From positions 2,357,501 to 2,421,500 of the forward strand of contig NZ_LBIA02000001.1 in NCBI RefSeq assembly GCF_001006325.2: 64,000 nucleotides of DNA, given 5' to 3'. The position numbers were made by a program, and so were the translations under genes. Shown here in pieces: positions 204 through 58,214 of this stretch. Positions within the stretch are counted from its first letter, which is position 1; the number at the start of each line of letters is the position of its first letter. The notes under the pieces were generated by a model. That model worked only from the letters and a program-made list of their open reading frames with translations, made no database searches and was not told where the DNA came from. This DNA comes from Afipia massiliensis. GTDB lineage: Bacteria; Pseudomonadota; Alphaproteobacteria; Rhizobiales; Xanthobacteraceae.

Positions 204-372
204 CTAGTGGTCCGTTTCTAACATTCGCACCCGGTTTCAGCAGACATTCTTGCGAATGTTAGAAACAAAGGACCACTAGCAAATATAAGTCTCTGGTGGA
301 GTTTTGGATTTGACATTCGCTTCGCTGGCGTGTGGTTAGTTGGATAGCGAATGTCAAATCCACTCCACCAGA
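204..372 (+). repeat. Twin-hairpin element, copy 1
   Basis: Two long hairpins separated by a short AT-rich linker (280-291). Hairpin 1 (204-279): outer stem 204-213/270-279 (10 bp, CTAGTGGTCC), an AAA bulge on the right arm at 267-269, inner stem 214-229/251-266 (16 bp), loop of 21 nt. Hairpin 2 (292-372): outer stem 292-301/363-372 (10 bp), a TTT bulge on the left arm at 302-304, inner stem 305-320/347-362 region (16 bp), loop of about 27 nt. All stems are perfect apart from the bulges. The element ends 26 bp before the UbiK-like start codon, hairpin 2 being nearest. Related copies are at 19512, 44685 and 58048. Confidence 0.9.
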
Positions 373-19453: not shown

Positions 19454-19511
19454 GGGCGGAATATGGGGCGCGAAGTGCGGAGAGAAAAGGGCATTTTCTT
19501 CGCCGCTTTCA

Positions 19512-19677
19512 AGTGGAGTGGATTTGACATTCGCGGCCGACCCGGCCGCACGTTCGCATCGCGAATGTCAAATCCAAAACTCCACTAAAAGCTTATAATT
19601 GCTAGTGGTCCTTCGATTCTTGCATTCGCAAGTTTGCCTATCGAAACGTGATGCGAATGTTAGAATCGGACCACTAG
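19512..19677 (-). repeat. Twin-hairpin element, copy 3 (inverted)
   Basis: Hairpin 2 occupies 19512-19586: outer stem 19512-19518/19580-19586, inner stem 19519-19534/19561-19576 (16 bp), AAA bulge 19577-19579. Hairpin 1 occupies 19602-19677: outer stem 10 bp, a TTC bulge at 19612-19614, inner stem 19615-19630/19652-19667 with two mismatches. The hairpin 2 side faces the uvrB start, 58 bp away. The element lies between the divergent uvrB and alkyl sulfatase genes. Confidence 0.9.
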
Positions 19678-28713: not shown

Positions 28714-28833
28714 GTCGTCCCCGCGAAAGCGGGGACCCATAACCACCTGCGTATCTGTTCAGAAGAGATGTTTTAACGACCGCGCTAAGACACGATGACA
28801 GGGAGTATGGGTCCCCGCTTTCGCGGGGACGAC
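28714..28833. repeat. R-type palindromic repeat, copy R2
   Basis: Arms 28714-28740 and 28807-28833, with the interior in the opposite orientation to R3 and R4 (starts with AACCACC, ends GGGAGT). It lies between DUF1501 and the aldo/keto reductase gene. Confidence 0.9.
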
Positions 28834-42210: not shown

Positions 42211-42230
42211 ATGCTTTCAACAAACACAAT

Positions 42231-42358
42231 GTCGTCCCCGCGAAAGCGGGGAACCATACTCCCTGCGCTCCCATGTTTTGTCAGGAAGTTGCAACGCGTC
42301 GTTTTGGGTGCAACACGAGAGTTGAGGGGTTATGGGTCCCCGCCTGCGCGGGGACGAC
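42231..42358. repeat. R-type palindromic repeat, copy R3
   Basis: Arms 42231-42257 and 42332-42358. The interior starts ACTCCCTG and ends GAGGGGTT. Between aroE and the small hypothetical gene. Confidence 0.9.
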
Positions 42359-42393
42359 CCGAGATTTGTTAAAGCTTCAACACAGGACTTGAT

Positions 42394-44684: not shown

Positions 44685-44850
44685 CCAGTGTCCTTGAATC
44701 CGAAGTTCGCCTTACTTGGCAGCGTCTTCTGCAGCGAACTTCGGATTCAAGAGGACACTGGTATTTATGGATTCTAGTGTGGCTTTGGTTCGCAAGTCCG
44801 CAACAGTGCGTGCTGCAAAGAAATGCGGACTTGCGAACCGCCACACTAGA
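44685..44850 (+). repeat. Twin-hairpin element, copy 4 (diverged)
   Basis: Hairpin 1 (44685-44761): outer stem CCAGTGTCC/GGACACTGG (44685-44693 with 44753-44761), inner stem of 17 bp (44694-44710 with 44734-44750), a GA bulge at 44751-44752 on the right arm, loop 23 nt. Linker 44762-44772 is AT-rich. Hairpin 2 (44773-44850): outer stem of 11 bp (44773-44783 with 44840-44850), a TTT bulge at 44784-44786 on the left arm, inner stem of 15 bp (44787-44801 with 44825-44839). The design equals copies 1-3, yet the arm sequences differ at about a third of positions with both arms changed together. It ends 56 bp before the glmM start, hairpin 2 nearest. Confidence 0.85.
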
Positions 44851-46265: not shown

Positions 46266-46383
46266 GTCGTCCCCGCGAAAGCGGGGACCCATACTCCCTG
46301 TCGGCGTTGTTCTGGAAAGACGTTAGCCACGCGGCCCAACGGCGGGCTTCGTGGTTATGGGTCCCCGCTTTCGCGGGGACGAC
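46266..46383. repeat. R-type palindromic repeat, copy R4
   Basis: Arms 46266-46292 and 46357-46383, interior starts ACTCCCTG and ends GTGGTT. Between glmM and the MFS gene. Confidence 0.9.
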
Positions 46384-51284: not shown

Positions 51285-51352
51285 AACCTCCCATATTCAC
51301 GGCGGCGGGAAACCTCCCCCCACCGGGAGGCAGCTATCTGGAAGGATAGACT
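51285..51352 (+). promoter_or_regulatory. serC-type leader RNA
   Basis: A 6-bp hairpin CCTCCC/GGGAGG (51313-51318 with 51325-51330) and a second hairpin CTATC/GATAG (51334-51338 with 51345-51349) directly precede the serC start; the second encloses GGAAGGA, the ribosome-binding site. This fits the serC RNA motif described upstream of serC in alphaproteobacteria, by recollection of its general layout. Control of translation through the sequestered binding site is inference. Confidence 0.6.
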
Positions 51353-52525
51353 ATGACTGTAGCGAAGCCCGCTTCGCGGCCTAACGTGCCGCATTTTTCG
51401 TCCGGCCCCTGCGCCAAGCGCCCCGGCTGGAACCCCCAAAATCTCAAGGACGCAGCCCTCGGCCGTTCGCATCGCGCGAAGGTCGGCAAGGCCAAGCTCA
51501 AGCTCGCGATCGATCTGACGCGCGAGGTGCTTGAAGTGCCTGCCGACTACAAGATCGGCATCGTGCCGGCGTCCGACACCGGCGCCGTCGAGATGGCGCT
51601 GTGGTCGCTGCTCGGGCCGCGCCCGGTCACCACCATTGCCTGGGAATCCTTCGGCGAAGGCTGGGTCAGCGACGTCGTCAAGGAATTGAAGCTCAAGGAT
51701 GTCGTCAAGCTCCACGCGGGCTATGGCGAGATTCCCGATCTGTCGAAGGCCGACAAGAACTCGGACATCGTGTTCACCTGGAACGGCACCACCTCCGGCG
51801 TGCGGGTTCCGAACGCCGACTGGATCCGTGACGACCGCGAAGGCCTGACCATCTGCGACGCCACCTCCGCCGCGTTCGCGCAGCCGCTCGACTGGCCGAA
51901 GCTCGATGTCGTCACCTTCTCCTGGCAGAAGGCGCTGGGCGGCGAAGCCGCGCACGGCATGCTGATCCTGTCGCCGCGCGCCGTTGCCCGGCTCGAGAGC
52001 TACACGCCGCCGTGGCCGCTGCCGAAGATCTTCCGCATGACCAAGGGCGGCAAGCTCAACGCCGGCATCTTCGAGGGCGAAACCATCAACACGCCGTCGA
52101 TGCTCTGCGTCGAGGACTATCTCGATGCGCTGAACTGGGCGAAATCCGTCGGTGGCCTCAAGGGGCTGATGGCGCGCGCCGACGCCAACACCAAGGTGCT
52201 CGCGGACTGGAAGGCGAAGACGCCGTGGGTGGATTTCCTCGCGGCCGACCCGGCGATCCGTTCCAATACCTCGGTGTGCATGAAGGTGGTCGATCCGGCG
52301 ATCACGTCGCTGTCCGCCGATGCACAGGCCGACTTCGCCAAGAAGCTGGTTGCCGCGGTGGAAAAGGAAGGCGCCGGTTACGACTTCGCGCACTACCGCG
52401 ATGCCCCCGCGGGCCTTCGCATCTGGTGCGGCGCGACGGTCGAGGCCAAGGACGTCGAGATCCTCACCGCATGGATCGACTGGGCGTTCGCCGAGACCAA
52501 GGCTTCGCTCGCCAAGGCGGCATGA
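51353..52525 (+). CDS. serC: Phosphoserine aminotransferase
   Basis: 390 residues. It converts 3-phosphohydroxypyruvate to phosphoserine. [17 protein letters not shown] is the family start, PLP binding includes [12 protein letters not shown], and the Schiff-base lysine is in [13 protein letters not shown]. serA follows after a small gene, so the two enzymes that follow 3-phosphoglycerate into serine are together. Confidence 0.96.
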
Positions 52526-58047: not shown

Positions 58048-58214
58048 CTAGTGGTCCGATTCTAACATTCGCACCCCTTTTCAACAGGCATTCCTGCGAA
58101 TGTTAGAATCAAAGGACCACTAGTAAATATAAGTTTCTAGTGGAGTTTTGGATTTGACATTCGCTTTGAGGACTCGCCTCCGGCGGGCCGCGAATGTCAA
58201 ATCCACTCCACTAG
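58048..58214 (+). repeat. Twin-hairpin element, copy 2
   Basis: Hairpin 1: outer stem 58048-58057/58114-58123, inner stem 58058-58073/58095-58110 (16 bp), AAA bulge 58111-58113. Linker 58124-58135. Hairpin 2: outer stem 58137-58145/58206-58214 (9 bp), TTT bulge 58146-58148, inner stem 58149-58164/58190-58205 (16 bp). Its end CTAG forms the stop codon of the EamA gene on the minus strand (58211-58213). Confidence 0.92.

Follow-up and report, generated by a model that had tools for sequence, protein, structure and literature searches.

Mobile twin-hairpin elements with complementary four-base feet in Afipia massiliensis and its relatives, and a candidate single-strand mode of movement

A window of 64,000 nt from the genome of Afipia massiliensis (the whole stretch of DNA analysed here) opens with a 168-bp sequence (204-371, forward strand) composed of two long hairpins in inverted order, raising the question of what kind of element this is and how it comes to be inserted at many places. 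A sequence-only reading of the window had described two 26-bp stems with 3-nt bulges facing each other across an AT-rich linker; folding and coordinates agree with that description, and the twin-hairpin observation is confirmed as real. The start at 204 stood as well, while the end was corrected from 372 to 371.

Architecture and conserved pairing

Each hairpin of this first copy consists of 10 bp, a 3-nt bulge, 16 bp and a loop of 21-24 nt. Hairpin 1 (204-279, forward strand; subtype A, TGGTCC stem, 21-nt loop) carries an AAA bulge (267-269) on its inner 3' arm, and hairpin 2 (293-371, forward strand; subtype B, TGGAGT stem, 24-nt loop), beyond an AT-rich linker of 13 nt (280-292, forward strand), carries a TTT bulge on its inner 5' arm, the placement of which can shift by one T. 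The inner arms are the complements of the outer arms plus three extra bases, and since the two hairpins face each other with bulged inner arms, the outer arms form imperfect terminal inverted repeats. The outer feet read CTAG...CCAG, and the TAG of the left foot (204-207, forward strand) is the stop codon of an upstream open frame (1-207). On a plasmid of Bradyrhizobium CB82, an ABC substrate-binding protein gene stops within the first four bases of the match (L419 6001-6004). Folding of both hairpins as single-stranded DNA, on both strands, reproduced the stems and the 3-nt bulge with z scores of -8.0 to -11.6 (0/200 shuffles as good for the single-hairpin folds), and the whole 168-nt strand reached a z score of -12.7.

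Three further copies in the window, located in the sequence-only reading at 19512, 44685 and 58048, share the plan, with hairpin 1 of copy 3, the net bulge of which is 2 nt, as the exception. Copy 2 (19510-19677, reverse strand) comprises a subtype B hairpin (19510-19588), a linker and a subtype A hairpin (19602-19677), with outer/inner feet CAAG/CTAA and CTAG/CTAG. Copy 3 (44685-44849, forward strand) joins a subtype C hairpin (44685-44761) through a linker to a subtype D hairpin (44774-44849), with feet CCAG/CTGG and CTAG/CTAG, and copy 4 (58048-58214, forward strand) has a subtype A hairpin (58048-58123), a linker and a subtype B hairpin (58137-58214), with CTAG/CTAG at both hairpins.

The pairing is kept while the sequence changes. 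Among 54 hairpins (70-79 nt long) from 27 elements, 40 were retained in alignment A2, in which 98.7% of 1041 cells were paired, a value that is high by choice because 14 hairpins that folded oddly, had a shorter bulge or were awkward to align had been excluded by eye. A2 contained 152 two-sided changes in 18 pairs, compared with means of 41 changes and 10 pairs in shuffles (0/500 as high), and pairing dropped to 25-37% in slid versions of the alignment. A wider scan, itself confined to hairpins with at least 21/25 pairs, found mismatches in 102/3575 pairs of 143 hairpins from the genome of the window and in 208/8325 pairs of 333 others. The bulge, on the conserved position of which the sequence-only reading had staked the existence of a family, was 3 nt long in 132 of these 143 distinct hairpins, 2 nt in 8 and 4 nt in 3, with none at 0, 1, 5 or 6 nt; among 412 hairpins of other genomes it was 3 nt in 316 and absent in 9. 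Read with the bulge on the left, its sequence was TTT in 81/132 and TTC in 32/132.

The two hairpins of an element are almost always unlike. Among 208 distinct paired elements, 207 combined two different hairpin subtypes and one was a like-like pair; TGGAG+TGGTC accounted for 125, TGTCC+TGTGG for 36, TGATC+TGTCC for 18 and TGGTC+TGTCC for 6, others being rarer. Such unlike hairpins would keep one from pairing with its partner. Moreover, on the strand carrying the T bulge, G-T mismatches exceeded A-C mismatches (116 vs 59, p = 2e-5), as seen in the three commonest subtypes (17:9, 26:10 and 40:12), whereas the excess was missing in the next four (2:4, 3:3, 5:5 and 2:5). The first two of these subtypes make up the main pair, in which they occupy opposite strands, so that a G-T excess in both favours DNA folding at each end over a single RNA. 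Short forms consisting of outer arms only, that is, the left arm of one hairpin and the right arm of the other, were also seen (L164, L183, L201 and L343); at locus L013, the copy in relative G019 is such a short form, and the genome of the window and G017 have the full element.

Copy number and distribution

A scanner applied to fetched DNA, requiring GTG/CAC at positions 4-6, at least 21/25 pairs and hairpins in the order of copy 1 at 3-30 nt from each other, recovered at least 66 paired elements in the genome of the window, a lower bound since decayed or otherwise built copies go uncounted under such strictness. Linkers in these 66 elements were 10-15 nt long, within the permitted 3-30 nt. 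BLAST with copy 1 against the same genome gave 37 rows, and a covariance model of one hairpin (R1) gave 149 matches among 150 places scored, antisense matches included.

The covariance-model search proposed in the sequence-only reading uncovered a large family. Under stricter filters, R1 matched 34/61 genomes, all of one family, comprising 29/29 genomes of the genus (that of the window included), 5/8 from other genera of the family and 0/24 from other families; in a larger draw, the hairpin model matched 50/100 genomes of the family at 1e-7. An exact 26-mer search returned at least 120 stretches in named genomes, and the matches listed included Afipia, Nitrobacter, Bradyrhizobium, Pseudolabrys, Rhodoplanes, Methylocella, Phyllobacterium and several metagenome bins. 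BLAST against phage records gave zero matches to the element, and viral contigs gave zero exact 26-mer matches. An open frame of at least 100 codons spans 28/62 joined element sites, compared with 100/131 random positions, indicating an intergenic preference. The relative G028 (6.0 Mb), a genome lacking a match to the Y1 transposase model, has more stem subtypes, including stems beginning CTAGTGTCCCGTCTCCGAATAACCG, and several nested elements.

Nesting, empty sites and four-base feet

Evidence for movement came from nesting and from empty sites. Near-identical elements in G031 and G036 have unrelated flanks that start right after CTAG; in other cases, the CTAG of one element holds a nested element of a different subtype or is shared with a second element (4-nt overlaps). 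Empty sites were sought at 21 loci of the genome of the window, namely copy 4 (28 relatives searched, junctions read in eight) and two batches of ten (read in nine and six relatives); 20 of the 21 had been chosen for a foot differing from CTAG, out of 40 such elements. Five loci were clear, three fitted better at one end, one fitted both ends, four were uninformative and eight were unclear or did not match. The nesting and the empty sites in relatives indicate that the family is mobile, bearing out what the sequence-only reading had inferred, and the empty sites for which it had suggested looking are clear at these five loci.

At the clear loci, the tetranucleotide of the empty site is identical to one outer foot in at least one filled genome and differs from the other foot: TCAG at copy 4, CCAG at copy 3, L007 and L122, and CGAG at L022. 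At copy 4, the empty site reads gccag- or gcgag-TCAG-gaagcggg in G002 and G017, the filled site reads gccag-TCAG-element-CTAG-gaagcggg in G019 and G026 and CTAG-element-CTAG in the genome of the window, and four further relatives have other sequence at this place. At copy 3, the flanks enclose CCAG in G026, G017, G019 and G014 and CCCG in G002, and the window has CCAG-element-CTAG. L007 is empty in G026 (CCAG) and G019 (CCTA), with CCAG-element-CTAG in the genome of the window and CTAG-element-CTAG in G017. L022 is empty in G019, G018, G024 and G002 (CGAG) and in G027 (AAAA), with CGAG-element-CTGG in G017 and CTAG-element-CTGG in the genome of the window; a few tens of bases beside this site, G026 carries a separate element (L336) with outer feet TCAG and CTGA. 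L122 is empty in G024 (CCAG), G026 (TCAG), G017 (TCAA) and G014 (CCAA), with CCAG-element-CTAG in G002 and G019 and GCAG-element-CTAG in the genome of the window. The tetranucleotide is thus present once before insertion and once after, the second foot arriving with the element, and the target is not duplicated, as the two ends differ from each other. Duplication of TA or of a 4-bp target was rejected on account of these empty sites.

Among the remaining loci, L025 has an empty CCAG in three relatives that fits both ends, and L051 (CAAG in four relatives, CTGG in G014), L023 (CCGG in three) and L135 (CCCG in two) match 3/4 bases at one end and 2/4 at the other. The ends of L006, L013, L102 and L107 are indistinguishable. 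For L001, L009, L016, L017, L024, L045, L059 and L104, the alignment was not clean or gave no match; L045 was placed here because its flanks differ in length, and L017 was seen in the first junction reading and left out of the following one. The place of copy 2 lacks the element in G026, G017, G019, G014 and G024 and is filled in G002, the alignment of its four bases not being clean. At the locus of copy 1 (L334), the element of G026 ends in CTAG on the right, and its left CTAG is preceded by an additional CCAG, an arrangement outside a simple insertion model.

Outer and inner feet were fully complementary in 115/132 hairpins (2000 shuffles: mean 57, maximum 70), including 36/53 hairpins with a foot other than CTAG. 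Read inward, the 132 outer feet were CTAG in 83, CCAG in 22, CTGG in 10 and CTCG in 4, others being fewer, and GTAG in none. The left and right outer feet were equal in 29/66 elements, 26 of which have CTAG at both ends, and in 3/40 elements with an outer foot other than CTAG. At copy 4, L007 and L022, the target is kept with a matching or near-matching inner foot in one lineage, and CTAG stands on both sides in another, as if target and inner foot had been mismatched and the mismatch then resolved in either direction. In the stems of orthologous copies (18 of 22 comparisons parsed, 7 hairpins skipped), 33/725 pairs differed: 9 by two-sided changes that left the bases paired, 8 by one-sided changes to G-T, 15 by one-sided mismatches and 1 otherwise. 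As only about 0.2 compensated pairs are expected by chance from the rate of single changes (a hand calculation), the 9 observed suggest that template switching or selection re-matches the arms where they stand. The survival of the bulge through such re-matching suggests that it is needed for movement.

Candidate mechanisms and relation to known repeats

Four features together, namely insertion next to a tetranucleotide that is not duplicated, bulges in the hairpins, pairing of the feet and a G-T excess on opposite strands, point to single-strand transposition with guide pairing as the most likely explanation. On balance, it is probable that the elements form a non-autonomous family, about 165 bp in length, and that they move as single-stranded DNA in folded form, with a tetranucleotide target, guide-like feet and an enzyme supplied in trans. 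At the clearest loci, an element, with its two unlike hairpins turned towards each other, has inserted 3' of a CTAG-like tetranucleotide (CCAG, TCAG or CGAG; CTAG in nested copies); the target then serves as one outer foot, and the foot at the opposite end is the element's own. The enzyme may recognise the hairpin by its T-rich bulge, and the choice of target and cleavage site may depend on whether the tetranucleotide can pair with the inner foot, like the guide of IS200/IS605. After insertion, template switching or selection would restore the likeness of the two arms at the site, as the orthologous copies suggest, giving CTAG/CTAG feet in one lineage and target-like feet in another. Several findings count against single-strand movement with a guide: no enzyme is linked, 33/50 carrier genomes are without a Y1 match, 8/21 loci are unclear or unmatched with 4 more at which the ends cannot be separated, and the replichore bias of feet other than CTAG is inconsistent. 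Regarding the last point, outer arms other than CTAG lie 4/1 on the forward/reverse strand in the genome of the window and 8/13 in G028 (p = 0.16), and replication-strand bias was discarded as evidence since the two genomes run opposite relative to GC skew.

The strongest competitor, which we consider possible if somewhat doubtful, holds that arm and foot complementarity arise solely by template switching within the palindrome after insertion, with targets chosen without pairing. The 115/132 complementary feet are compatible with guide pairing at the cleavage site, and the same pattern could be obtained by post-insertion correction alone; the feet of copy 4, L007 and L022, which vary between lineages from CTAG/CTAG to target-like, and the nine two-sided changes between orthologues also agree with correction. 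However, all 13/13 readable empty-site loci have at least one empty genome with a Y..G tetranucleotide, mostly YNAG (the other empty genomes at these loci reading CCTA, AAAA, TCAA, CCAA, CAAT, TTAA or CAAA), and the bulge, which is the largest mismatch of the stem, has been erased in 0/143 hairpins of the genome of the window and 9/412 of other genomes.

A rather unlikely version of single-strand movement, overlapping with the guide-pairing explanation and naming its enzyme, is that the elements are oversized REP/BIMEs moved by an IS200/IS605-like or RAYT (Y1 HUH) transposase present in some strains and lost from or transferred between others. Guide-like feet, a bulge, inverted pairs and the lack of duplication are all found in REP and IS200/IS605, according to PMC8266576 and PMC6006769, yet the genome-linked Y1/RAYT gene that the sequence-only reading had proposed to look for is not supported. 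The Y1 model (PF01797) gave zero matches in the complete genome of the window, and among 100 genomes of the family Y1 was found in 17/50 with the element and 11/50 without (p = 0.27). A post hoc comparison gave an association with high copy number (11/17 genomes with at least 40 hits vs 17/83 others, p = 0.0006), the threshold being picked after the table had been seen and the top hit counts being read as at least 48 per genome; general mobile-DNA load may be its cause. Against a Y1 mover, G028, assembled as one contig, has at least 48 element hits and is without a Y1 match. When 28 Y1 loci were read (8 and 20 from two genome searches), 27 lacked an element within a distance of about 2 kb. Ordinary GTAG REPs flanked at least 3 of the loci, among them three RAYTs of G031. 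The one exception is an IS200-like element in G082 (L423 2190-3010, tnpA of 143 aa), which starts about five bases past a twin-hairpin element and carries GC-rich hairpins of its own; we take this neighbour as chance or as an IS200 using the site.

Other searches for the mover were equally negative within their scope. The Y2 (IS91) model gave zero matches in the 29 genus genomes searched, and with one neighbour in all from the Y1 and Y2 searches and the 28 loci, a linked HUH transposase was rejected. Among the 40 most recurrent frames in the surroundings of 108 loci, the only recurring transposases were Y1 genes that had been retrieved deliberately; these frames mostly encode ABC transporter, substrate-binding and dehydrogenase-like proteins, and on two annotated plasmids the elements lie next to genes for transport, regulation and metabolism. 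An autonomous copy was likewise missing from 100 loci (80 + 20) of a few kb each, where consecutive hairpins in the right order were never more than 37 nt apart; the paired scans covered gaps of up to 30 nt. About as unlikely as a Y1 mover is the idea of a large class of orphan single-strand elements with a mover outside the Y1/Y2 HUH enzymes, in which the hairpins would be read by their shape and the foot would be an evolvable guide that sets the target. Reading by shape, if true, would leave the stem sequence free and hold the bulge and the pairing fixed.

It is improbable that the hairpins are kept for a function in RNA, as an mRNA end or a small RNA, with their spread incidental. The intergenic preference (28/62 vs 100/131 sites spanned by an open frame) and the predominance of G-T over A-C would suit such a role, but the G-T excess follows the orientation of the T bulge in both partners of the main pair, on opposite strands, presence at the same locus differs between species of the genus, and zero Rfam families matched at the gathering score, the microRNA-like matches below it being weak and chance-like. 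Least probable of all is a MITE of an IS630- or IS5-like DDE transposase with a TA or CTAG target, an identity suggested by outer arms that form imperfect terminal inverted repeats and by perfect CTAG sites resembling TA or CTAG duplications but disfavoured by the insertion junctions, where TCAG, CCAG and CGAG empty sites, targets without TA, gave unequal ends (TCAG..CTAG, CCAG..CTAG and CGAG..CTGG), where a 2-bp AG duplication fits 4/5 clear loci and fails at L022, and by inner arms with a conserved 3-nt bulge to which it gives no role.

Among known systems, the nearest are REP/BIMEs and the IS200/IS605 group, as the sequence-only reading had sensed in likening the hairpins to REP/BIME-type inverted palindromes, though much longer, and their strand asymmetry to that of single strands that fold into substrates, among them attC sites and IS200/IS605 ends; of these points, the BIME-like inverted pairs, the polarised bulge and the likeness to IS200/IS605 ends are supported. 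With REP/BIMEs and their RAYTs, the elements have in common an intergenic position, many copies, a bulge or mismatch in the hairpin (group 2), inverted pairs and a foot tetranucleotide ending in TAG. They differ in hairpin length (70-79 nt, compared with 21-65 nt in REP/BIMEs as given in PMC6006769), in the tag, which is CTAG within the stem rather than the GTAG 5' of the hairpin foot that REPs require according to PMC8266576, in the lack of a linked RAYT gene such as REP copies flank, in the combination of two different subtypes in 207/208 pairs, and in insertion beside a CTAG-like site. Identity with GTAG or CGTC REPs is excluded by size, tag and linkage. For IS200/IS605 and, as proposed, REPs, PMC8266576 and PMC6006769 describe insertion at the side of a tetranucleotide, bulged hairpins and foot pairing, with the guide 5' of the hairpin. 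Like IS608 and ISDra2, the twin-hairpin elements lie 3' of a tetranucleotide without duplication, have extrahelical bases in their end hairpins and a guide-like tetranucleotide, and carry the tetranucleotide of the other end with them; unlike these, they lack tnpA between their ends, almost all of the element is taken up by the hairpins, which are mutually inverted, and the guide would be the 3' foot, whereas the left guide of IS200/IS605 is 5' of its hairpin.

Based on these comparisons, the family may be a variant of REP- and IS200-like hairpin elements, and there is some chance of a mover of a new type. A search of titles and beginnings of abstracts in the literature outside subscription papers and preprints found no description of twin-hairpin elements. 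The family bears on the question of how REP-like repeats spread, as its copies are long, numerous, still polymorphic between the species of one genus and accompanied by empty sites, so that both the choice of target and the chemistry of the ends can be deduced from genome sequences. Foot pairing predicts that a change of four bases would retarget the element; moreover, the family offers a natural case of co-evolving palindrome arms and a handle on the mover.

More distant likenesses were also considered. The core boxes of integron attC sites are GTT/AAC, whereas twin-hairpin ends read CTAGTG. The RIME elements of rhizobia are likewise large palindromes in intergenic DNA, a likeness in general description. 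The CGTC-tagged REPs of Alphaproteobacteria, as described in PMC3733652, are palindromic repeats without linkage to a transposase gene in the same group of bacteria, and they differ in being short (20-40 bp) and of other sequence. A separate repeat family in the window, at 722-842, 28714-28833 and 46266-46383, consists of perfect inverted pairs of GGTCGTCCCCGCGAARGCGGGGACCCATA spaced 62-64 nt apart, which look like CGTC-type REPs. In addition, the window holds an inverted repeat at 42216-42373, with 62-nt arms that are 73% complementary and 34 nt apart, and a serC leader RNA (RF00517) at 51303-51354, matched with 65.6 bits.
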